Shown piece after piece: positions 27,319 through 42,244 of a DNA stretch of 64,000 nt. The notes beneath the pieces are model-generated. The model was not told the DNA's origin. It made no database searches and saw nothing but the letters and a program-made list of their open reading frames with translations. A program made the position numbers and the translations under genes. The stretch lies in assembly GCF_014204755.1 (NCBI RefSeq), contig NZ_JACHLZ010000001.1, positions 3,100,001-3,164,000 of the forward strand. The letters run 5' to 3'. Numbering within the stretch: the first letter of the stretch is position 1; each line of letters begins with the position of its first letter. The DNA is from Brachybacterium aquaticum. Lineage in GTDB: Bacteria > Actinomycetota > Actinomycetes > Actinomycetales > Dermabacteraceae.

Positions 27319-28443
27319 TCAGATCCGCATCGGCATGATCAGGTACTTGTACGAGTTGTCGGGCTCGCCCTCGAGGGACTCCTGGCCGGTCATGACGGAC
27401 GGCTTGATGGAGTCGGTGAAGGTCAGGCGCGCGAACTCGGTGCCGAGCGCGCCGAGGCCGTCGAGCAGGAAACCGGAGTTGAAGCCGACGACCAGGTCCT
27501 CGCCCTCGAGCTGCGCCTCGAGCACCTCGCTGGCCTGGGCGTCGTCACCGGCGCCGGCCTCGAGGGCGACCTGGCCCTCGGTGAAGGACAGGCGTACGGG
27601 GGTGTTGCGCTCGGCGACGAGGGAGACGCGCTTGACCGCGTCGATGAGAGCGCCGGTGGAGACCACGGCGGTGATCGCGGTCGTGTCGGGGAACAGGCGC
27701 CTGACCGGCGGGTACTCGCCGTCAACGAGGGTGGAGGTGGTACGGCGACCGCCGGCCTCGAAGCCGATGAGGTTCGCGGAGTCGTCGTCGTTCAGAGCGA
27801 TCTCGACGCCGCCGCCGGTGGCCAGCGAGCGGGCGACCTCGTGCAGGGTGCGGCCGCGGACCAGGGCGGTCAGCTCGGTGCCGGGGGTCGAGGGGTTCCA
27901 CGTCAGCTCGCGCAGCGCCAGGCGGTAGCGGTCGGTGGCCATGAGGGTCATGGTCTCCCCGGCGATCTCGACCTTCACACCGGTGAGCAGCGGAAGGGTG
28001 TCATCCTTCGACGCCGCGACGGTGACCTGGGAGATCGCCTCGGAGAAGAGGTCGGCGGCGACGGTGCCGGCGACCGGCGGCATCGCGGGCAGCTGGGGGT
28101 ACTCCTCGACGGGGAGGGTGGCCAGGGCGAAGCGGGCGCTGCCGCAGCGGACCTGGAGCTTTGTGCCCTCGAGCGCGATGGAGACGTCCTTGTTCGGCAG
28201 GGCCCGGACGATGTCGGAGAGCATGCGGCCCTGGACCAGCACCTCGCCGGGCTGCTCGACCTCGGCCTCGAGCCGGATCTGCGCGCTGACCTCGTAGTCA
28301 AAGGTCGACAGCTGTAGCTCACCGCCGGCATCGGCGACGATGCGCACGCCCTGCAGGATCGGCATCGCCGGACGGACGGGGAGGGTACGGGTGGCCCAGG
28401 AGACGGCGTCACCGAGGACGCCGCGATCGAGGTGGAACTTCAC
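27319..28443 (-). CDS. dnaN: DNA polymerase III beta subunit (sliding clamp)
   Basis: Product of 374 aa, the standard clamp length, made of three repeated clamp folds (KFHLDRGVLGDAVSWATRTL..., then LPLLTGVKVEI, and the C-terminal YLIMPMRI). It forms the ring that tethers polymerase to DNA. GTG 28443 is preferred over GTG 28452, three codons earlier, because AAGGAG (28453-28458) is then about 9 nt upstream. With the earlier start the Shine-Dalgarno would abut the codon. It is followed by recF and preceded by oriC. Confidence 0.97.
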   Translation of the reverse strand: MKFHLDRGVLGDAVSWATRTLPVRPAMPILQGVRIVADAGGELQLSTFDYEVSAQIRLEAEVEQPGEVLVQGRMLSDIVRALPNKDVSIALEGTKLQVRCGSARFALATLPVEEYPQLPAMPPVAGTVAADLFSEAISQVTVAASKDDTLPLLTGVKVEIAGETMTLMATDRYRLALRELTWNPSTPGTELTALVRGRTLHEVARSLATGGGVEIALNDDDSANLIGFEAGGRRTTSTLVDGEYPPVRRLFPDTTAITAVVSTGALIDAVKRVSLVAERNTPVRLSFTEGQVALEAGAGDDAQASEVLEAQLEGEDLVVGFNSGFLLDGLGALGTEFARLTFTDSIKPSVMTGQESLEGEPDNSYKYLIMPMRI

Positions 28444-29048
28444 CGTTTCCACTCCTTCGCAGTGGTCGAATGCCAGAACGTGATCGACGTCGTCGAACGG
28501 TGCACAGCGTATCGGGTCTCGAGCCCTGCCGCCGACACACCGGCGCCGATCCTTGACATCCGATCCCCTCCTCGTCCGTGCTCCTCGCTCCGCCGCTGCC
28601 CTCCGCCGGCCGTCGCCGCCCGGCCCTCCCCGTCCACATCCCCGTCGAGCAACTACCTGCAGTCCTCATCATCACGGCTGTGGATTCCGTGGAAAAGTGT
28701 CATTCGCGCAGGTCGCAATCGGAACTGACGGCGTGGGTCGCTCGTGGAGAATGACAACTCCTCCGTGGGCGGACTGTGCACGGATCAGCGTGCTCCGCCG
28801 GTTCCTGTCATTTCTCCATGCACATCGGCTCCTGCGCGGATGCTCGTCGTTCCACACTGTCCACAGAGTTATCCACAATTGGGGAGAGCGACAGGATGAC
28901 CTGGACTGTCATTCGCTCGTCCCCAGAGCATCCACAGCTCCCCTTCGTCGCGGTTCCGCGCACTTCCCGCCGCTCGTCGGCCGACGGAAGCGTTGCCGAC
29001 GTCACGCGCAGCGGCGCCTCACGGCTGTCCCACACTGCGCGAGGGCGA
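28444..29048. other. oriC: oriC candidate: dnaA-dnaN intergenic region
   Basis: A 605-bp gene-free gap of visibly lower GC. DnaA-box-like 9-mers: TTATCCACA 28869-28877 (perfect), CTGTCCACA 28857-28865, GCATCCACA 28928-28936, and on the minus strand GAATCCACA at 28679-28687 and TTTTCCACG at 28688-28696. The first two are spaced 12 bp, a spacing seen again in dnaA and at 40.6 kb. Gene orientation switches around dnaA-rpmH, and its place between dnaA and dnaN is the standard actinobacterial origin. A CGTCGGCCGACG palindrome occurs at 28975. Confidence 0.75.
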
Positions 29049-30836
29049 CTACTGACGGCTCGAGGAGCTCTTGATCCGTGCGGTCAGCTCGGTGACCTGG
29101 TTGAAGATCGCCCGACGCTCCTTCATGAGCTCGCTGATCTTCTTGTTCGCGTGCATGACGGTGGTGTGGTCGCGGCCGCCGAACTCCTCGCCGATGCGGA
29201 TCAGCGGCATGTCGGTGAGCTCCCGGCAGAGGTACATGCCGATCTGGCGGGCGGAGACCAGGCGCCGGCTGCGGCCGGTGCCCACGATCTCCTCGACCGA
29301 GAGCCCGAAGTAGGTCGCGGTCTGCGCGATGATCGTCGACGCCGTGATCTGGGCGCCGTCGTCGTGGGAGAGCAGGTCCTTGAGCACCGACTCGGCGAGG
29401 GTGACGTCCATGGGCTGGCGCGACAGGGAGTGCAGCGCCTGCACGCGGATCAGCGCGCCCTCGAGCTCGCGGATGTTCGTGGCGATGTGGGAGGCGATGT
29501 ACTCCAGCACGTCGTGCGGGACCTCGCCGGTGTTCTCCTGCGCCACCTTCTTGCGCAGGATGGCGATGCGGGTCTCGAGGTCCGGCGGCTGCACGTCCGT
29601 CATCAGGCCCATCTCGAACCGGGAGCGCATCCGGTCCTCGAAGCCGCCGAGCTCCTTCGGGGGCAGGTCGGAGGTGATGACGATCTGCTTGTCCGAGTTG
29701 TAGAGCGTGTTGAAGGTGTGGAAGAACGCCTCCATCGTCTCGGGCGCGCGCTGCAGGAACTGGATGTCGTCGATGAGCAGGATGTCGATGTCGCGGTACC
29801 GGCGCTGGAACTCCTGCGCCTTGCCGAACTGACCGGACTGCACGGAGTTGATGAACTCGTTGGTGAACTCCTCGGAGTTCACGTACCGCACCACCACGTT
29901 CGGGTACAGGCTCTGCGCGTAGTGGCCCACCGCGTGGAGCAGGTGCGTCTTGCCGAGGCCCGAGCCGCCGTAGATGAACAGCGGGTTGTAGGCCTTCGCC
30001 GGCGTCTCCGCCACGGCCGACGCCGCCGCCTGGGCGAATCGGTTCGAGGACCCGATCACGAAGGTGTCGAAGGTGTACTTGCTGTTCAGGCGCGAGTCCT
30101 CGCCGAGGGTCGAGCCGCCCGCGGACGGGGCGGGCCGGGAGGGAGCCGGCATCGGGGAGGGGGCCGACGAGCCCGTCAGCGCCGAGAGTCCCGCGTAGGC
30201 GCTGGGGTCGTCGGCCGCGGAGCCGTGGAATCCGGTGTCCAGGCGCGCGCCGCCGCGCGTGAAGGGTCCGGCCGACGGGGAGGCGCCGGCCGAGCCGGCC
30301 GACGTGCTCGAGGGCAGGGCGGCCCGGCCCAGCTCGCCGCTGCGGGGAAGGACCGAGCCGCGGCCGCCGTCGGCGTCCGAGGGGCCCGCGGAGTAGCCGT
30401 CCCCACGCCGGAACGGCGCGTTGTGGACATCCTGTCCGGCACTGTCCACATCGTTGTCCACAGAATGTGCACCGGAGGAGGTGGAGGAGGAGGTCAGCGG
30501 GGCCGACGGGGCCGCGGAGGCGGTCTGTGCGGACGGTGCCGCGGCGGGCGCCTCGTCGTCGTCGCCCTCGAGCAGCAGCGACTCGTCCACCGTGACCGCG
30601 AAGCGCAGGTCCTTGCCGGTCGCCTCGCTGAGCGCGGCCTTGAGCGAGCCGGCGATCCGGTGCTCGATCAGCTCCTTCGCCGAGGTCGAGGGCACGGCGA
30701 GCAGGGCGGTGTCCGCCACCACGGCCATCAGACGGGACAGGGTCAGCAGGGCGATGACGCGCTGCGACACGGTGTCGTCGCGGCGCAGCGTGCTGAGCGT
30801 GCGCTCCCAGATCGCGTCGGCGTCAGCCTCGGACAT
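29049..30836 (-). CDS. dnaA: Chromosomal replication initiator protein DnaA
   Basis: Product of 595 aa. Domain I covers about residues 1-85. A long Ser/Ala/Pro/Gly/Asp-rich domain II covers about 90-255. The AAA+ domain III has Walker [10 protein letters not shown] and Walker [10 protein letters not shown]. Domain IV carries the DnaA-box-binding signature [15 protein letters not shown]. It opens oriC and loads helicase. The long domain II is usual in high-GC actinobacteria. The domain II DNA itself contains three DnaA boxes (30422-30462), encoding the [16 protein letters not shown] stretch. Three more boxes lie upstream, suggesting autoregulation. Confidence 0.99.
30422..30462. promoter_or_regulatory. 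DnaA-box cluster inside the dnaA coding sequence
   Basis: Three boxes occur within 41 bp of the domain II coding region: TGTGGACAT (30422-30430, minus), CTGTCCACA (30442-30450) and TTGTCCACA (30454-30462), the last two 12 bp apart. TTGTCCACA is the preferred box in high-GC actinobacteria. Such density within a GC-rich gene is unlikely by chance. Confidence 0.6.
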
Positions 30837-31194
30837 CAGTCACTCCCTACAGGTCGGGCGCGGGTCGGAACAGTTTTCCACAAGATCCCCAGTATTGTGG
30901 ACAGGAGATGTGGATAGAAGGTGGGCGTCCCCACAGGACCCCCTCCGCGCCGTGCCAGGCAGTGAGAATCGGGCCACAACCAGGCCTCTCCGGGGATCTT
31001 CCATTGACCCCGTGCACCCTCGCGCCTAAAATCGTGCAGTCAGCGCTGCGCGCCGCCCGTTCCGGCGCCGTCCCTGGGCTCCCAGGGGCCATGGCAGCCG
31101 CCCCGCTCACGCGGGTGCGCCCGGACACCCGTCCGCGCAGCAGACCACACGCCACCGCGAGGGGCACGTCCGTGCCCGACCATCGAGGAGAACC
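30837..31194. promoter_or_regulatory. Divergent dnaA / rpmH promoter region with DnaA boxes
   Basis: A 358-bp gap between divergent dnaA and rpmH. DnaA-box-like sites are TTTTCCACA 30874-30882, TGTGGACAG 30896-30904 and TGTGGATAG 30909-30917, just upstream of the dnaA start, fitting autoregulation. A strong rpmH promoter lies at 31004-31032. No gene is seen. Confidence 0.7.
31004..31032 (+). promoter_or_regulatory. rpmH promoter (-35 TTGACC, -10 TAAAAT)
   Basis: TTGACC (31004-31009), a 17-bp spacer and TAAAAT (31027-31032) form the best sigma70-type promoter in the window. Transcription would begin about 155 nt before rpmH, leaving a long leader that may hold control elements. Confidence 0.8.
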
Positions 31195-34025: not shown

Positions 34026-34691
34026 GTGCTGCCTCTTCCCGATCCGCTGCGACCGGCGGCCGAGCGCGTCCTCGGGGACCGTCTCGAGTTCGCCGAGCGT
34101 TTCGTCGACCTGCTCGCCGAGCAGGGTCCCGAGCGCGGGCTCATCGGTCCCCGTGAGGTGGACCGGCTCTGGGAGCGGCATCTGCTCAACTGCGCGCTGA
34201 TGGCCGATGCGATCCCGTCGGACGCCCGCACCCTGGCCGACGTCGGCTCCGGCGCCGGCCTGCCCGGGGTGGTCCTCGCGATCGCGCGCCCGGACCTGTC
34301 GGTCACCCTGATCGAGACCATGCAGCGTCGTACGACGTGGCTCGAGGAGGTCGACGCCGAGCTCGGCCTCGGCCTCGAGGTGGTGCGCGCCCGGGCCGAG
34401 GACCTGCACGGGCAGCGGACCTTCGAGGTCGTCACCGCCCGGGCGGTCGCGGCGCTGGACAAGCTGGCCCGCTGGACCCTCCCCCTGGTGGAGGACGGCG
34501 GGGTGCTGCTGGCGATGAAGGGCTCCTCCGCGGCCGACGAGATCGTCAAGGCCGAGAAGGTCCTCACGAAGCTCGGCGGGGTCGATCCCACCATTGCGCA
34601 GTACGGGACGGGCGAGGTCGAGGTTCCCACTACAGTGGTCCAAGTGCGTCGCCGAGCGAAGGCGAGCAGGAAGGGAGATGCGCGTGGCTGA
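34026..34691 (+). CDS. rsmG: 16S rRNA (guanine-527-N7)-methyltransferase
   Basis: Product of 221 aa. It methylates G527 of 16S rRNA using SAM. The SAM-binding motif ADVGSGAGLPGVVLAIARP is near residue 68, and conserved LWERHLLNCALMAD and ARAVAALDKLARWTLPL follow. GTG 34026 begins 8 bp after khpB. Its 3' end overlaps the parA start by 14 bp, implying translational coupling. Confidence 0.96.
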   Translation: MLPLPDPLRPAAERVLGDRLEFAERFVDLLAEQGPERGLIGPREVDRLWERHLLNCALMADAIPSDARTLADVGSGAGLPGVVLAIARPDLSVTLIETMQRRTTWLEEVDAELGLGLEVVRARAEDLHGQRTFEVVTARAVAALDKLARWTLPLVEDGGVLLAMKGSSAADEIVKAEKVLTKLGGVDPTIAQYGTGEVEVPTTVVQVRRRAKASRKGDARG

Positions 34692-35607
34692 GAAGCGCGA
34701 CGACTCCTCCCAGGGGGCGGGGTCGATGGACGACACCCCGCTGATGCGGGAGCTCACCCGGGATCACGCCCGGCGCAGGCAGCTCGAGGGCGTGGAGTTC
34801 ACCGCCCCGGAGAGCACGAGGATCATCACGATCGCCAACCAGAAGGGCGGCGTGGGCAAGACGTCCACCGCCGTGAACCTGGCGGCAGCGCTGTCGATGG
34901 GTGGCCTGCACGTGCTGGTGATCGATGCGGATCCGCAGGGGAACACCTCCACCGCGCTGAACATCGAGCACCATGCCGAGGTGCCCAGCATGTACGAGGT
35001 GCTTGTCGAGTCCGCGCCGATCTCCGACGTGGTCCAGGACGTCCCGGACATGGAGCGCCTGCAGTGCGCGCCCGCCACGATCAACCTCTCCGGCGCCGAG
35101 ATCGAGCTGGTCTCGCTCGTGGCGCGGGAGAACCGGCTGCGCAACGCCATCCGCGACCACCTCGAGGACCGCGCCGCCCGGGGTCTGCCGCGGCTGGACT
35201 ACGTGCTCATCGACTGCCCGCCGTCTCTCGGCCTGTTGACGGTGAACGCCCTGGTCGCGGCCCGCGAGGTGATGATCCCGATCCAGGCGGAGTACTACGC
35301 GCTCGAGGGTCTGACGCTGCTGCTGAACAACATCGATCTGATCCGCCAGCACCTGAACCCGGAGCTGGTCGTCTCCACGATCCTGTTGACGATGTACGAC
35401 GCCCGCACGCGGCTGGCGGCGCAGGTCGCCCAGGACGTGCGCGAACACTTCCCGGAGCAGACCCTGGAGGCCACGATCCCGCGGTCGGTGCGGATCTCCG
35501 AGGCGCCCAGCTACGGCCAGACCGTGCTGACCTACGATCCGAGCTCCAGCGGAGCCCTGGCGTACCGTGCGGCGGCGTACGAGCTGAACACGCGTCCCGC
35601 TCCCTGA
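34678..35607 (+). CDS. parA: Chromosome-partitioning ATPase ParA (Soj)
   Basis: Product of 309 aa. It has the deviant Walker A NQKGGVGKTST near residue 50, a DADPQGN motif, and the Walker B-like VLIDCPPSLGLLTVNAL. It binds DNA non-specifically as ATP dimers and moves ParB-parS complexes. ATG 34678 begins inside rsmG; GTG 34684 is an equally possible start and is better spaced from GGGAG. It is followed by parB after 116 bp. A 30-residue N-terminal extension before the ATPase domain is common in actinobacteria. Confidence 0.97.
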   Translation: MRVAEKRDDSSQGAGSMDDTPLMRELTRDHARRRQLEGVEFTAPESTRIITIANQKGGVGKTSTAVNLAAALSMGGLHVLVIDADPQGNTSTALNIEHHAEVPSMYEVLVESAPISDVVQDVPDMERLQCAPATINLSGAEIELVSLVARENRLRNAIRDHLEDRAARGLPRLDYVLIDCPPSLGLLTVNALVAAREVMIPIQAEYYALEGLTLLLNNIDLIRQHLNPELVVSTILLTMYDARTRLAAQVAQDVREHFPEQTLEATIPRSVRISEAPSYGQTVLTYDPSSSGALAYRAAAYELNTRPAP

Positions 35608-35723: not shown

Positions 35724-37583
35724 ATGACGCAGAAGCGAGGACTCGGCAGAGGTCTCGGCGCCCTGATCCCGGGAGCGGGCACCTCGCCCGCCCCCGAGCA
35801 GGAGCTGCGCACGCGCACGCGCCCGTCCGCTGGGGAGGGCGGTCGCAACGGCACCACCCGCCCCGTGGACATGTTCTTCTCCGGCGAGAAGGTCGCGGCC
35901 GACGAGGCTCCCCAGCGCGGCAGCGAGAGCGCGCGCGATCTCGCCACCGGCATGGCCCGCGCCGCCGCCGAGCGCCGCGGACGGAACGGCTCCCGCAGCA
36001 GTGCTGCCAAGGGCAGCACCACTGCGTCCGCCTCCGAGAAGGACAGCGCTGAGGCGAAGGCGCCGAGCTCCTCGAAGACGGCCTCCTCGAAGAGCAGCAC
36101 CGCCAAGACCAGCACTGCCAAGACCAGCACTGCCAAGTCCGGCACTGCGAAGGCCGGCACCGCCAAGAGCGGTACTGCCAAGACCAGCACCGCGAAGTCG
36201 ACGGGCTCGACGACTGCCACGAAGAGCTCTGCGTCCACGAGCGCCCCCGCGAAGAAGGCGGCGCCGAAGAGCGCTCCGGCGAAGAGTGCGCCTGCGAAGA
36301 CCCCGGCCTCGAAGACTGCCGCGTCGAAGACCGCCACGTCGAGGTCCGCTGCTGCGACGACCACCCCCGCGAAGGCGACGGAGGCGACGACGTCGGCGAC
36401 TCCTTCCCCCGAGGCCACCTCCGCCGCATCGGAGCCGGCCGAGGCGTCGACCCCCGCGACCTCGACCCCGCAGCAGCCCGCCGGCGCGGCCGCCGAGGCA
36501 CCGAGCGCGCCCACCGCCGCCGAGCCGGCCGCGGAGGAGCGCGAGCAGAGCCCCGTCGTCGATGTCGAGAAGGTCGAGTCGACTCCCGTTGTGGAGGCGC
36601 CCGCGCCCGCAGAGGAGTCCGCTGACGACTCCGCGGACGAGTCGACTGACGTCTCTGCCGAGGAGCCCGCCGAGGAATTGGCCGAGACCTCGCCCGCGGA
36701 GTCGGCTGACTCCGGAGCTGACCACCAGGGCCTGGTCAGCGTCCCGGGTGCCGAGTTCGCCGAGATCCCGATCCACGAGGTCCGCGAGAACCCGCGCAAC
36801 CCTCGCACGATGTTCGACGAGGACGAGCTCGACGAGCTGGCGTACTCCCTGCGCGAGGTGGGCGTCCTGCAGCCCGTCGTCGTGCGACCGATCCCGGTCA
36901 CCGAGGACGGGGAGTCCTTCGAGCTGGTCATGGGCGAGCGCCGCTGGCGTGCCGCGCGGCGCGCAGGACTCACCGCGATCCCGGCGATCATCCGCGAGAC
37001 CAGCGATGACGATCTCCTCCGCGACGCTCTGCTGGAGAACCTGCACCGTGCCCAGCTGAACCCGCTGGAGGAGGCCAACGCCTACCAGCAGCTCCTCGAC
37101 GACTTCGGCTGCACGCAGGACGAGCTCGGAGAGCGCATCGGCCGCTCGCGCCCGCAGATCACCAACACCCTGCGCCTGCTGCGCCTGCCGGCCCTCGTGC
37201 AGCGGCGCCTGGCCAGCGGTGCCCTGAGCGCCGGTCATGCCCGCGCCCTGCTCTCCCTAAACGACCCGGCGCTGATGGAGGAGCTGGCGCAGCGGATCGT
37301 CAGCGAGGGCCTCTCTGTCCGCGCGGTGGAGCGCCTCGTGGCGAGGGGAGGGCAGCAGCAGACGGGCACCCGGACCGTGCGTCGCAGCACCTACGATCCC
37401 CACGTCGTCGACCTCACCAGCCGTCTGTCCAACCGGCTTGAGGCACCCGTCCGGATCGATGTCGGCAAGCGCAAGGGCCGCATCACGTTGGAGTTCACGA
37501 ACCTCGAGGATCTCGAGCGTCTCGTGGAGAACATGGGCCTCGACATCCCGCTCCCCGAGCAGCAGCAGACCAGCGAGCACTGA
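35724..37583 (+). CDS. parB: Chromosome-partitioning protein ParB with very long N-terminal linker
   Basis: Product of 619 aa, nearly twice the usual 290-350. It begins with the ParA-contact motif KRGLGRGLGALIP. From about residue 347 it has the normal ParB/Spo0J core: EIPIHEVRENPRNPRTMFDE, the CTPase motif GERRWRA near 405, box II-like DALLENLHRAQLNPLEEA and the HTH TQDELGERIGRSRPQITNTL. The C-terminal dimer domain ends the protein. Between about residues 20 and 345 is a low-complexity linker: Ala/Lys/Ser/Thr-rich and basic, including seven STAKT-type pentads at 125-159, then acidic Ala/Glu/Ser/Pro. It faces a 2.3-kb array of parS-like sites directly downstream. Confidence 0.97.
   Translation: MTQKRGLGRGLGALIPGAGTSPAPEQELRTRTRPSAGEGGRNGTTRPVDMFFSGEKVAADEAPQRGSESARDLATGMARAAAERRGRNGSRSSAAKGSTTASASEKDSAEAKAPSSSKTASSKSSTAKTSTAKTSTAKSGTAKAGTAKSGTAKTSTAKSTGSTTATKSSASTSAPAKKAAPKSAPAKSAPAKTPASKTAASKTATSRSAAATTTPAKATEATTSATPSPEATSAASEPAEASTPATSTPQQPAGAAAEAPSAPTAAEPAAEEREQSPVVDVEKVESTPVVEAPAPAEESADDSADESTDVSAEEPAEELAETSPAESADSGADHQGLVSVPGAEFAEIPIHEVRENPRNPRTMFDEDELDELAYSLREVGVLQPVVVRPIPVTEDGESFELVMGERRWRAARRAGLTAIPAIIRETSDDDLLRDALLENLHRAQLNPLEEANAYQQLLDDFGCTQDELGERIGRSRPQITNTLRLLRLPALVQRRLASGALSAGHARALLSLNDPALMEELAQRIVSEGLSVRAVERLVARGGQQQTGTRTVRRSTYDPHVVDLTSRLSNRLEAPVRIDVGKRKGRITLEFTNLEDLERLVENMGLDIPLPEQQQTSEH
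36096..36200 (+). repeat. Seven 15-bp repeats encoding (S/G)TAK(T/S/A) in parB
   Basis: Seven consecutive 15-bp units encode STAKT, STAKT, STAKS, GTAKA, GTAKS, GTAKT and STAKS at ParB residues 125-159. The Lys/Ala/Thr pentads resemble histone H1-like or mycobacterial HupB-like tails. Copy number may vary between strains. Confidence 0.85.
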
Positions 37584-37746: not shown

Positions 37747-38002
37747 CCCCGCTCCCCCGGAGGCACCGACAGCGGATAGGAGAGTTCCTCGGACGGACTC
37801 TGTGCACCTGCAGTGGACGAGACGTCGCAGAGTGTGCAGGTGTGCAGGTGAGAGGGCTGCGCAGCGGTTCTCCACCACTGTGTACAACAGTGTGGACAGC
37901 GAGGTCGAGCATGCGTTGTGACGCTTTCGTGAGTGCCAGACACGCACAACTCGCGGAAGGCCTTTTGACCACGAGTTCCGGCGTCGTACTCCCTGGCTGT
38001 GG

Positions 38003-40356
38003 GTTTCACGCGAAACCTCACCTGCCCTGCTGGAGAGTATGGACGAAAGGGGGTCGGGACGCCAGGTCATGGGAAGCTCCTCGTCGCCGCATCCCGTGGC
38101 GGTGAGTGCGCGGGTGTTCACGTCATGTGCAGCCGTCTCGACCATCGCCCACCACTTCCACTGGTGTGGACCTCGTCGTTCACCCTGGGGTCGAGGTTTC
38201 ACGCGAAACCGCGGCATCGTACGTCGGGTCCGCTGGCGAACGGGCCATGGGGCCGGCACGTCGAAGCTCTTGATCACCCTCGCGAATCGGTCGATCGGGA
38301 GATGAAATTCTTGAGGCTATCTCTCCAGGGGAGGAGTCGCGTGAGGTTGTCGAGCTCCTGGCGACCAGAAGCGTGTGAACTGTTTACCACTGCAGAGATT
38401 CACGTGAAACGCGCGCGTGCTTCTCCGCCGTGCAGAGCCCACCCCTCTCTCGTAGTTCACCCTATTGCGGACCAAAAGATGATGTGGACGCCCTCGGTCC
38501 ATCCCGTGAGCACCTCGGCGTATCTCCCCCCGGTGCGTCCGCTCCTCGGAGAGTTGGCTGAGTTTCACGGGAAACACTCCTTGTTCGTCACAGGAGATGG
38601 CGTCCTCCACCGATCGCAGCAGACGACATCTCAAGCGAGCGGTACGAGGCACAGCCGCCTGTCGCAGCAGAGAGATTCAAAGGCGCTTATGCAGAGCCCA
38701 CTTCGTGGTCTGACGGAGCAGTGCAAGCGATGATGATCGCGTTGGAAGTGAGGATGATTCACGTAGAACTACGTCTGAAGAGCTCTGAGCCTTCCTCTAG
38801 GTGAGAGAGAGTTTCACAACCAGCTGCACCGAACCCTTGGTTTCCCGTGAAACATGGACGACTGCACCAGAATCGCCCCTCTGCCCCAGGGGAGTGGGTT
38901 TCCCGTGAACCGCTGGCGGCGTCATGAGCACCTGCCCGAGTGGCAGGGCATGCCAGGGGCTGTGCAATCGGAACAGCAGACAGGCCACTGCGTGGTTTCC
39001 CGTGAAACACCGCATTCGTCGGGCTTGCGATGCGAAGAGAGTCGGTGTGTCTCTGCTCGGGGTGCATCCACGGCGGGAGCAGATACCGTCGATGGAGTGG
39101 ACTGGTGCCGGCGCTACTTCGCTCGTCACCCTGCTAGTCAGCAGCGTTTCCCGTGAAACGTAGTTCCTACTCCTCCTCCACCTCCAGCCTCCTCCTCCAG
39201 GAAGGGGAGACGGATTCACGTGAAACTTCTTGCCCGGCTTTCCAGGACGATCGGTCTCCGACTCGAGTGTGATCCCCACGCAGTACCCGACAGGACTCTC
39301 TGGCACTCAGGGATGGCAGCGCCGGCGCTCGACAATGAACTGAACCAAGCTACATGCCTACACTGGTTTCCCGTGAAACCTCGACGATGGAACATCGCAT
39401 GTTCGACCTGTTCAAGCGGCGTGCTGCGCATCCCCTACCCTCCCCCAGGGGAGTGCCCCACTCCCGCCGTTCCGTGTGTAGTGCCTTCATTGAAGGAGGT
39501 CGCGGTTGAGGTAGTACAGCGAGGCACGTTTCCCGTGAGACGCCGTGGGCTGCCGAGATGGCATCCGCCATCCCTGGAAGACTTCAGCCCCCAATGTCCA
39601 ATTGATTACTCCATTGCCGTGCGCGCGCCAGCGGGTTTCACGGGGAACATCCGTGACTGGCTCGAGCGTCGTCGCCTTCTGCACACGGTGGAGCATCGCT
39701 GGTCGCACGCAGATCAGTGTTAGCAGCACTGACTCCAGCGGAGTTTCCCCACGCTTTTTTCGCCTGCATCCGGGTATCGGGCTCACGAGTCGAGGCGTTC
39801 CACGGGAAACGTCACCATCGAGCGGCCTGGTCCACGCTGACCTCCACGCCCTCGGGGCCGGGCTGCGCTCCGATCTCAGGGGTTCCTACACCCCACGCTC
39901 ACGCCCGCTAGGCCGGCCGGTACACGGCACTGCCGTCCACCATGCCGCAAGAGGGAGGACGAAGTGCAGAGCTGGGCATGAGGGGACTCCGCAGTGGTGC
40001 CAACCGATCCACATTGGCGAGGACCATGGGTGTGCCAGGCAGCGACCCCTGCCCCTGGCCTTGCGCCTGTCCGGGAGCCGAACCTCGATGCCCGCCCCCA
40101 CTGCCGCCCGAGGTGGTCGCCGACTGGTCAGCACAGACTGACGTTTCACGGGGAACATCCTTCTCCGGTAAATGAACGGGGAGTGGCCGAGTGATGGCCG
40201 GTCGGGTCGGTCCTCACGGTCCGTTGCGCCGCGCAGCGAGATCGAGGGGGTTCACGTGCAACGCCTTCGGCCCCGCTCTACTGGGTCGCACATGCAGTTC
40301 GGCTCTGCGGGGGATGCGCTCGATCTACGTGACCGATCGGCCGTTCCACGTGGCGC
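38003..40356. repeat. Array of 17 imperfect parS (ParB-binding) sites
   Basis: Start positions of 14-mers related to GTTTCACGTGAAAC: GTTTCACGCGAAAC 38003, 38196; GATTCACGTGAAAC 38397, 39213; GTTTCACGGGAAAC 38562; GATTCACGTAGAAC 38756; GTTTCCCGTGAAAC 38840, 38995, 39146, 39366; GTTTCCCGTGAACC 38898; GTTTCCCGTGAGAC 39528; GTTTCACGGGGAAC 39635, 40143; GTTCCACGGGAAAC 39797; GGTTCACGTGCAAC 40249; GTTCCACGTGGCGC 40343 (weak). All keep the outer G and C and most of both arms; none is the perfect palindrome. Spacing is mostly 60-200 bp, the first four near 165-200 bp. It lies immediately downstream of parB and should be the main chromosomal centromere. Confidence 0.88.
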
Positions 40357-40595
40357 CTTGTACGCCCGGCACGGTCTGCCCGATGTCGCGAGAACGGCGT
40401 CGTCGCGTGTTCGTGCACAGTGTGCAGAACCTTGTGGACAACTCGATTCCGACGCGTGTCAGGAATCTGTCCGGAGCCTCCCCGCGGCCATACCACCGAT
40501 GGTCCAGGCGCGGCAAGCCGCGCCCCCGTGGAGAGAGAACGCCCAGGTCAGCGGCACAATCCGGCCGCCGAGGATGGCTGATCCCTCACGCCGAG

Positions 40596-40677
40596 TTATC
40601 CACATTCTTCTGTGGACAACTCTGTGGACAGGGGCGTGCGACAGTGTGGACATCGTTGTGGACGACACTGTGGACAG
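40596..40677. promoter_or_regulatory. Six-box DnaA cluster with 12/22/12/12-bp phasing
   Basis: One plus-strand TTATCCACA (40596-40604) faces five minus-strand boxes read as TGTGGAC at 40611, 40623, 40645, 40657 and 40669. Their 9-mers are TTGTCCACA, CTGTCCACA, ATGTCCACA, TCGTCCACA and CTGTCCACA on the minus strand. The pair at 40611-40631 equals the oriC pair at 28857-28877 except for one base. The cluster lies between convergent genes, so it is not a promoter. It may be an accessory origin, a DnaA titration site or a coordination element with parS. Confidence 0.75.
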
Positions 40678-40706
40678 TCAGTTCGTGCACGTCAGAAGGG
40701 TCGTTC

Positions 40707-41168
40707 TCAGGTGATTTGACAGTCCCCGGGAACCGGCTTCACGGCGGCATCGGGCACGGCGAGCGGACCCAGCTCGGCATCGACGACATGCTTGGGCAGG
40801 GCGCCGCTTCGTCGCACGTCCAGCCGCCAGGGTCCGGGGAGGAGACTCTCCTCCCCGCGCGGGGAGAGTCCCCGCAGCTCCGCCTCGACCACGGGAGCAG
40901 CTCCCTCGCTGCCCTCCGGTCCCTCACAGCCGAGCGGCTCATCCGCGCCGCCCTCGTCGGCCGGGACGAACCGCAACCACGTCGGAAGGTGCTCGACCTG
41001 CCACCGATCGAGGATCCCGTCGTCGGGATCCTCCACCAGGAGGGTGTGCATGGAGGAGCCCCAGCGCCGCGCCAGCTCGCGAAGGAGCGTCGGCGCGGGG
41101 CGGGAGGGCCCGGCCCAGTCGGCGCTCAGCAGCACCAGGACGGGGACCCTCCCCTCCGCCGCGGTCAC
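40707..41168 (-). CDS. Thioredoxin-fold protein without the active-site cysteines
   Basis: Product of 153 aa. The N-terminal half aligns with thioredoxin: VPVLVLLSADWAGPSRPAP in place of the usual WCGPC, and HLPTWLRF with the cis-proline. Both catalytic cysteines are replaced (Ala and Ser), so disulfide reduction is not expected. Two cysteines occur elsewhere, in PLGCEG and the C-terminal GDCQIT. Its GTG start overlaps the trxB stop by 4 bases, the place normally held by trxA. It may act as a redox-inactive partner or scaffold for TrxB. The C-terminal 60 residues are not thioredoxin-like. Confidence 0.75.
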   Translation of the reverse strand: MTAAEGRVPVLVLLSADWAGPSRPAPTLLRELARRWGSSMHTLLVEDPDDGILDRWQVEHLPTWLRFVPADEGGADEPLGCEGPEGSEGAAPVVEAELRGLSPRGEESLLPGPWRLDVRRSGALPKHVVDAELGPLAVPDAAVKPVPGDCQIT

Positions 41169-42244
41169 TGCGCGGCGACCTCCACCGCGACGTCGTCCGC
41201 CGCGGCCTCCTCGGAGGCGTCGATGCCGGCCGCGCGGTCGGCGAGCCAGCGCTCCGCGTCCAGCGCTGCCTGGCAGCCGGTGCCCGCGGCGGTGATGGCC
41301 TGGCGGTAGGTGTGGTCCACGACGTCGCCGGCGGCGAACACGCCCGGCACCGAGGTGTAGGTGCTGCGACCCTGGCAGACGATGTAGCCCTCGTCGTCCA
41401 GCTCGAGCTTGTCGCGCAGCAGGTCGGTGCGGGGCAGGTGTCCGATCGCCTCGAACACGGCGTTGGTCGCGACCTCGCGCTCCTCACCGGTGACGGTGTC
41501 CCGCAGGGTCACGGACTCGACCTTGTCCTCGCCGTTGATGGAGACGATCTCGCTGTTCCACGCGAAGCTCAGCTTCGGATCGGCTTCGGCGCGGCGTGCC
41601 ATGATCTTCGAGGCGCGCAGCGCGTCGCGGCGGTGCACGAGGGTCACGGACTTGCCGAAGCGGGTGAGGAAGGTGGCCTCCTCGACCGCGCTGTCACCGC
41701 CGCCGACCACGATGATGTCCTGGTCCTTGAAGAAGAACCCGTCGCAGGTCGCGCACCAGCTGACGCCCTTGCCGGAGAGGGTCTCCTCGCCGGTCACGCC
41801 GAGCTTGCGGTACGCGGAGCCGGTCGTGATGATCAGGGCCTTCGCCCGGTACACGGTGCCGTCGTCGAGGGTGACGGTCTTGATGTCGCCCTCAAGCTGG
41901 AGATCCACGGCGTCCTCGTAGACCACCTCGGCGCCGAAGCGCTCGGCCTGCTCCTGCAGGGAGGCCATGAGCTCGGGACCCTGCACACCCTCGGGGAATC
42001 CGGGGAAGTTCTCCACGTCGGTCGTGGTCATGAGCGCGCCGCCGGCGTCGAGAGCACCCGCGATGACGATCGGGCTCATCTCGGCGCGGGCGGTGTAGAT
42101 CGCGGCGGTGTACCCGGCGGGGCCGGACCCGACGATCACGACCTCGTGCACGGTGCCGTCGCCGCCGTCCTGGGCGACGGGGGCGGGCTGCGCGGCCGGG
42201 GCGGGGCTGCCGAGGATGTTCAGCGCCTGGATCGGCTGGGTCAT
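41165..42244 (-). CDS. trxB: Thioredoxin reductase
   Basis: Product of 359 aa. It reduces thioredoxin with NADPH via FAD. The FAD-binding motif VVIVGSGPAGYTAAIYTARA, the redox-active WCATCDG, the NADPH-binding VVGGGDSAVEEATFL and C-terminal GVFAAGDVVDHTYRQA are all intact. A roughly 30-residue N-terminal Ala/Pro extension and a 20-residue acidic C-terminal tail make it longer than the usual 310-320. GGAAGG precedes ATG 42244. It is coupled to the degenerate thioredoxin-like gene. Confidence 0.97.
   Translation of the reverse strand: MTQPIQALNILGSPAPAAQPAPVAQDGGDGTVHEVVIVGSGPAGYTAAIYTARAEMSPIVIAGALDAGGALMTTTDVENFPGFPEGVQGPELMASLQEQAERFGAEVVYEDAVDLQLEGDIKTVTLDDGTVYRAKALIITTGSAYRKLGVTGEETLSGKGVSWCATCDGFFFKDQDIIVVGGGDSAVEEATFLTRFGKSVTLVHRRDALRASKIMARRAEADPKLSFAWNSEIVSINGEDKVESVTLRDTVTGEEREVATNAVFEAIGHLPRTDLLRDKLELDDEGYIVCQGRSTYTSVPGVFAAGDVVDHTYRQAITAAGTGCQAALDAERWLADRAAGIDASEEAAADDVAVEVAAQ

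Follow-up and report, generated by a model that had tools for sequence, protein, structure and literature searches.

A phase-locked array of DnaA boxes at the edge of the Brachybacterium parS region, a candidate origin-distal DnaA-control locus

What might a compact group of DnaA boxes do that lies outside the replication origin, at the border of a centromeric parS array? This question is raised by a locus in a Brachybacterium chromosome, which we analysed in a window of 64,000 bp (the whole stretch of DNA under study, corresponding to positions 3100001-3164000 of a single-contig genome of 3,449,336 bp). An earlier note on this DNA had described a cluster of six DnaA boxes and offered three readings: an accessory origin, a DnaA reservoir of the datA/DARS kind, or an element coupling the start of replication to segregation. 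All six sites were recovered at 40596-40677, one facing box followed by five boxes in the same direction, and the reported 12/22/12/12-bp phasing was borne out, with TGTGGAC cores at 40611, 40623, 40645, 40657 and 40669 (Table 1). The cluster is also, as had been stated, denser in boxes than the dnaN-dnaA gap (six in 82 bp versus five TGTGGAY in ~600 bp), and the proposed distance of ~12 kb from oriC holds, the cluster being ~9.8 kb away from the start of dnaA and 11.7 kb away from the oriC pair. It indeed lies at the end of the parS array, whose final parS-like sites are found at 40143 and 40249. The flanking genes are convergent, in agreement with the initial description, but the end of parB is 3.0 kb away and only a 153-aa ORF, for which Pfam returned no family, adjoins the cluster. 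The sites of the parS array are imperfect, with 11 of them within three mismatches of TGTTTCACGTGAAACA and none matching it perfectly, and several parS-like sites have TTTCCCGTGAAA or TTTCACGGGAAA centres.

Table 1. Features of the DnaA-box cluster and its surroundings, in window coordinates.
Feature	Position	Strand	Basis or remark
dnaN	27319-28452	-	
oriC DnaA pair	28857-28877	+	dnaN-dnaA gap; 12-bp spacing, CAGGTCA at -26 from the strong box
dnaA	29049-30836	-	Pfam Bac_DnaA, Bac_DnaA_C
yidC-type insertase gene, then R3H-domain gene	between dnaA and ParA-like gene	+	Pfam
ParA-like gene	34594-35607	+	
parB	35724-37583	+	Pfam ParB_N, HTH_ParB
DnaA pair, weak TTGTACACA and CTGTCCACA	37879-37899	-	parB end of the array; spacing of 12 bp
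parS array, 16 sites with up to 3 mismatches to GTTTCACGTGAAAC	38003-40262	+	between parB and the DnaA cluster
Upstream DnaA sub-site	40414-40441	-	TTGTCCACA at 40433-40441; ~160 bp from the cluster
Sub-site partners	40421; 40414		weak TGTGCA core 12 bp before TTGTCCACA; facing TGCACA half
CAGGTCA motif	40544-40550	+	upstream flank
Facing DnaA box TTATCCACA	40596-40604	+	sequence inspection; same offset in relatives
Five DnaA boxes	40611-40677	-	minus-strand reading, TGTGGAC on the plus strand; 12/22/12/12 spacing
GCACGTCA motif	40687-40694	+	downstream flank
153-aa ORF	40707-41168	-	adjoins the cluster
TTGACAG motif	40716-40722	+	overlaps the 3' end of the 153-aa ORF
Thioredoxin-reductase-like gene (trxB by place)	41165-42244	-	Pfam Pyr_redox_2; synteny anchor

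The cluster is not a chance assembly of boxes. TGTGGAY occurs 110 times in 464 kb of the chromosome, and at the background of 0.19 per kb outside the origin region, the Poisson chance of finding six boxes in 80 bp is ~2e-14 per place. The whole 3.45-Mb genome contains just five same-strand pairs with 12-bp spacing (TGTGGAY-N5-TGTGGAY), three of which lie in the cluster, one in the dnaN-dnaA gap and one inside dnaA; a search with the reversed control pattern found no match anywhere in the genome. When gaps of 2-32 bp are admitted, seven of the 14 same-strand pairs in the genome map to oriC/dnaA or the cluster. Bins of 500 bp with at least three boxes are limited, in the 464 kb, to oriC, dnaA, the cluster and a distal locus next to a rhomboid-protease gene, and the phased array itself is present in a single copy in the genome.

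Conservation across the Dermabacteraceae, which the earlier note had suggested as a check, is seen at the level of the genus. With up to three mismatches allowed, the exact 12/22/12/12 pattern is present in one copy each in 25 of 38 Brachybacterium genomes and in none of nine genomes from other genera of the family, and reversed control patterns gave no matches in the family genomes. An order-wide sample of 297 genomes from 94 genera yielded ten matches, every one in Brachybacterium. All 25 genome-wide matches share one syntenic locus, and a facing NTCCACA stands at the same offset in each of them, although it was absent from the search pattern. Over the 25 full copies, the mean pairwise identity amounts to 0.97 for the 36 core columns, a value partly given by the way the copies were selected, and to 0.42 for the other columns. 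As the search itself was defined by the cores, the independent signs of conservation are the shared locus, the facing box and the flanking motifs described below. Selection seems to hold the predicted boxes and their spacing, not the intervening sequence.

The locus was further taken from 45 genomes, 36 of Brachybacterium and nine of other genera (a trxB match was lacking in G029 and G032), and scored by its six cores, with a maximum of 36. Among the 36 Brachybacterium loci, 25 score 33-36 and six partial copies score 27-30; the latter comprise two decayed copies (G033, G035), three with boxes 1-4 in 12/22/12 phase (G010, G012, G034) and one that keeps the facing box (G018). Scores of 24 or less were obtained for five Brachybacterium loci (G004, G006, G011, G017, G022) and for all nine loci from other genera, which lack the rigid phasing. 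In a tree built from pieces of DnaN, ParA and TrxB, the full copies and the two decayed ones form one clade of 27 (support 95/93), with the other four partial copies branching outside it. Loss of the cluster from relatives that retain parS, which the note had considered evidence against its proposals, is thus seen in part: the five low-scoring members of the genus have 10-17 parS sites but no phased array, and two to four single boxes still lie beyond their last parS. In this sample, predicted boxes at the array edge are family-wide, whereas rigid phasing is confined to Brachybacterium. For comparison with the order's other families, 40 loci were taken out of 104 genomes with a trxB match (38 of the 40 with a ParB match in the stretch taken), and in none of them does a dense parS array have a similar phased array next to it. 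Weaker look-alikes in these families include three boxes just 3' of parB (L211) and four boxes in 150 bp (L194). In a second locus set, of which 26 of 80 loci were inspected, four Brachybacterium loci have the cluster and two Dermabacteraceae loci have boxes beyond the parS array; the remaining 20 have no cluster of at least three boxes beside trxB.

The putative element is larger than first described: inspection of the sequence adds a DnaA sub-site with a box at 40433 and weaker partners, the pair at 37879/37891 near the end of parB, and flanking motifs. A TGTGGA core at -200 to -120 relative to box 1 is found in all 31 element loci scoring at least 27, and in 24 of them it follows a loose TGCACA-TGTG pattern. 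CWGGTCA lies at -80 to -40 in 24 of the 25 full copies, in 23 of these at -65 to -68; on the other side, GCACGTC or a one-base variant is found at +70 to +92 and TTGAC at +98 to +116, each in 21 of 25. Across all 31 element loci, the counts are 30 for CWGGTCA, 23 for the GCACGTC type and 24 for TTGAC. CWGGTCA is frequent enough (237 in 464 kb) that most of its copies are unrelated to DnaA. TTGACAG occurs three times in 464 kb; since it shares bases with the end of the adjoining ORF, there may be a coding reason for its presence in this genome. Its use as a promoter -35 element was considered and rejected, as a by-eye reading of the flanks revealed no -10-like partner. At the opposite end of the array, 25 of 34 Brachybacterium loci and one of nine others have a loose 12-bp pair (TGTGNA-N6-TGTGNA) no more than 900 bp from the parB match, a count that omits two loci without a ParB match and includes two (G017, G027) in which this match stops early.

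It is very improbable that the cluster serves to control the transcription of its neighbours or that its facing boxes specify an RNA hairpin or terminator. DnaA can act as a transcription regulator, according to the available text of PMC13220808, and the facing box and box 1 form an inverted repeat, but the cluster sits at the 3' ends of convergent genes. A hairpin or terminator was discarded, as there is no covariation: at the variable position of the repeat, A stands unpaired against C in 10 of 25 genomes, compared with 14 in which the bases could pair. A search of Rfam with the element returned two matches at E values up to 1, both far under the cut-offs. A coding function was likewise dismissed, given that there is no common open frame; 16 of 25 genomes have no frame open across the 313-bp element, and the other nine have one or two of the six frames open over this length.

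The suggestion that the cluster forms an accessory origin found no support in the analysis of strand composition. Over 464 kb, both the extremum of the cumulative GC skew and the best two-segment split fall at window position 30925, the 5' end of dnaA, and a split at the cluster scores 13.9 units worse. The skew is weak in this stretch of 464 kb and has its maximum rather than its minimum at dnaA, which is inverted relative to the usual rule. The cluster is also placed away from dnaA and dnaN, and the dnaA/dnaN genes and those from the yidC-like gene to parB diverge from 30925. The idea that the cluster represents a remote part of oriC, or a second region of DnaA oligomerization that opens DNA or loops to the origin, therefore appears improbable. 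It would account for the box density, which is above that of the dnaN-dnaA gap, and for the 12-bp pairs and CAGGTCA motifs common to the cluster and oriC. Furthermore, duplex stability is as low as at oriC, with a mean percentile of 0.90 versus 0.87 in 20 genomes, although this score may merely reflect the non-coding nature of both regions.

The features common to the cluster and oriC can be traced through 31 Brachybacterium loci with an anchored dnaN-dnaA gap. A second core is located at +12 of the strong oriC box in 22 of the 31 loci, another at +21 in 21 and one at +9 in nine. CWGGTCA is found at -45 to -5 of the strong box in 18 loci, 16 of which have it exactly at -26, and is missing from this interval in 13, whereas GACCTGC lies on the far side of oriC, at +140 to +180, in 24 of 31. 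The motif flanking the predicted cluster is thus also placed at fixed positions in oriC, in many though not all genomes. Inside the dnaA coding region, window positions 30422-30462 hold a 12-bp DnaA pair and a third box, and a similar pair ~1.4 kb from the oriC pair recurs in many Brachybacterium genomes.

A related arrangement exists at a second distal site, 172 kb away from oriC in the direction of dnaN (C1:2956370-2956770), where four TGTGGAY boxes with CAGGTCA between them are flanked by rhomboid-protease and pyroglutamyl-peptidase genes, in a gene order kept in all seven relatives first compared. A rhomboid match was obtained in 43 family genomes and lacking in four of the 38 genomes of the genus; 40 loci were taken, 34 of them from Brachybacterium. 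At least three same-direction boxes are present in 27 of these 34, as is a 12-bp pair (27/34); a 21-bp pair is found in 24 and TGACCWG within the box span in 26. Relative to the 21-bp pair, TGACCWG lies 138-141 or 151-153 bp beyond in 20 of 24 loci, at 161 bp in one, and is missing in three. Many Brachybacterium genomes have box distances of 54, 21 and 12 bp with a central TGACCTG; the pattern is absent from G028, G018 and several early branches. No parS site (up to two mismatches) was detected in any of the 40 rhomboid loci within the 1.6 kb taken from each. Nine genome stretches were inspected for other DnaA-box pairs. One of them (L287, C1:1139500-1142600, around 1337-1578) has four DnaA boxes and TGACCTG, lies ~1.46 Mb from oriC along the shorter arc, assuming a circular chromosome, and may be a further member of this set of DnaA boxes with CAGGTCA. 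A 33-bp sequence that includes a DnaA pair occurs in identical form at three places (C1:402779, 1106258 and 3289753), two of them in lower-GC DNA (0.67); these are possibly copies of a repeat element.

Since the same box logic and the CAGGTCA motif recur at oriC and at a second conserved distal locus without parS, we favour a role of the cluster as an oriC-distal DnaA-control locus, one of a dispersed set that would resemble datA/DARS or the clusters of Bacillus subtilis. Of the three readings offered initially, a reservoir or control function appears best supported by these sequence comparisons, and we consider it to have an even chance of being correct. The cluster is, by sequence, a conserved non-coding group of DnaA boxes outside oriC, as expected for loci of the datA/DARS kind. 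Plain titration by number is a weak explanation, because six boxes are few compared with ~110 TGTGGAY in 464 kb, and it leaves the placement beside parS unexplained. The case rests on geometry: the conserved 12-bp step suggests an ordered DnaA oligomer, and the function of oriC depends on the orientation and helical spacing of its boxes, as summarized in the available part of a review (PMC4285127). Counting against a DnaA-control function are the absence of the phased array from five of the 36 Brachybacterium loci and all nine of the other genera, and the lack of the CAGGTCA motif in the tested interval of 13 of the 31 oriC regions.

From these features, we infer that DnaA could bind the cluster and assemble head-to-tail on its phase-locked boxes, perhaps starting from the facing high-affinity box and assisted by a candidate CAGGTCA-binding partner, whose putative sites are also present at oriC and at the DnaA-box locus 172 kb away. 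The upstream TTGTCCACA corresponds to the high-affinity box reported for Streptomyces coelicolor and Mycobacterium tuberculosis in the accessible part of the same review (PMC4285127). Only 10-12 kb from oriC, the cluster is copied right after initiation. Its early copying would immediately double the number of high-affinity sites and withdraw DnaA from the newly formed origins, or convert DnaA-ATP. Such a withdrawal could potentially limit re-initiation, so that the effect of the cluster would be negative and the element would act as a brake.

The main rival of this DnaA-control function is a coupling to the centromere, in which DnaA on the boxes bordering the array would act on ParB or ParA, or limit ParB spreading or SMC loading, with rising DnaA activity triggering or licensing origin segregation as reported for Caulobacter. 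We regard this as a tentative possibility, to which the distribution of boxes around the array lends weight. Each of the 44 family loci whose parS sites are in view has one or more DnaA boxes past its final parS. In Brachybacterium, box density changes from 2.02 per kb before the first parS to 0.37 inside the array and 7.46 after it, compared with 1.55, 0.52 and 2.75 per kb in the other genera (sums that omit G026 and G030, which have no ParB match). The 12-bp pair at the parB end, common among the Brachybacterium loci, adds boxes on the inner side, so that boxes flank the parS array, an arrangement of the Caulobacter type. In Caulobacter, DnaA binds parS and promotes partitioning, as stated in the accessible part of a review (PMC6399470). 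However, the five members of the genus without the phased array keep their parS sites, which counts against the coupling to segregation proposed in the note. Moreover, the combination of boxes and CAGGTCA recurs 172 kb away, with no parS in the 1.6 kb taken, and the control of initiation by ParA in B. subtilis needs no parS near oriC, according to the available text of PMC7614844. Position alone cannot tell a linkage to parS from one to trxB or oriC, because parB, the parS array and trxB stay together in all 45 loci. In one genome (G016, locus L069), parB and trxB lie ~8.5 kb apart and the parS sites form a split array, yet the DnaA array keeps its place at the trxB end.

It is also conceivable, if rather unlikely, that both functions meet in a replication-segregation junction specific to Brachybacterium, in which a phase-locked DnaA filament on the outer side of the array, together with the smaller pair at its inner end, would act on the centromere complex of ParB and ParA, and one CAGGTCA-binding protein would mark oriC, the centromere edge and the rhomboid locus and unite them into one regulatory set. 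Should the element act on the centromere, it would represent a Gram-positive counterpart of the DnaA-parS link of Caulobacter. Irrespective of its function, little is known about initiation timing in actinobacteria beyond the usual models, and an element of ~300 bp with a natural series of full, four-box, decayed and absent forms, together with a motif common to three loci, turns the issue into a directly testable question. A search for literature on Brachybacterium and DnaA, or on DnaA boxes and parS in Actinobacteria or Streptomyces, did not retrieve the element, with most subscription journals lying outside its reach. DnaA-box clusters outside oriC are already known; by the literature searched, the new aspects appear to be a phase-locked array bordering a parS array and a second motif common to oriC and a distal locus.

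Among the known systems, the D78, H69 and H24 loci of Streptomyces coelicolor provide actinobacterial examples of DnaA-box clusters outside oriC, one of which was reported to restrain initiation, and the cluster described here resembles them in both lineage and location. B. subtilis has six such clusters, whose deletion leads to early initiation (available part of PMC13220808). Like these, the Brachybacterium boxes lie away from oriC and are proposed to tune free DnaA, but they differ in their phase-locked, conserved spacing, their position at a parS array and the presence of a second motif common with oriC. The datA, DARS1 and DARS2 loci of Escherichia coli similarly control DnaA from outside oriC, with more than one per chromosome (same source, as far as it is accessible). 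Whereas they involve a site for a bending protein and nucleotide exchange or hydrolysis, the likeness of our cluster to them lies in its conserved DnaA boxes outside oriC. As to the second motif, the oriC of M. tuberculosis contains MtrA boxes in the form of two GTCACAgcg direct repeats (available text of PMC4285127), which likewise place a GTCA-containing motif among the DnaA boxes of an actinobacterial origin; unlike these repeats, the GTCA motif found here looks single in a by-eye reading of the flanks. Finally, the parS centromere of Caulobacter also has DnaA boxes beside parS near the origin (Mera et al., 2014, as described in the accessible part of PMC6399470), whereas in Brachybacterium the boxes edge an array of at least nine parS-like sites, and six of the boxes are joined in a phased array of their own.
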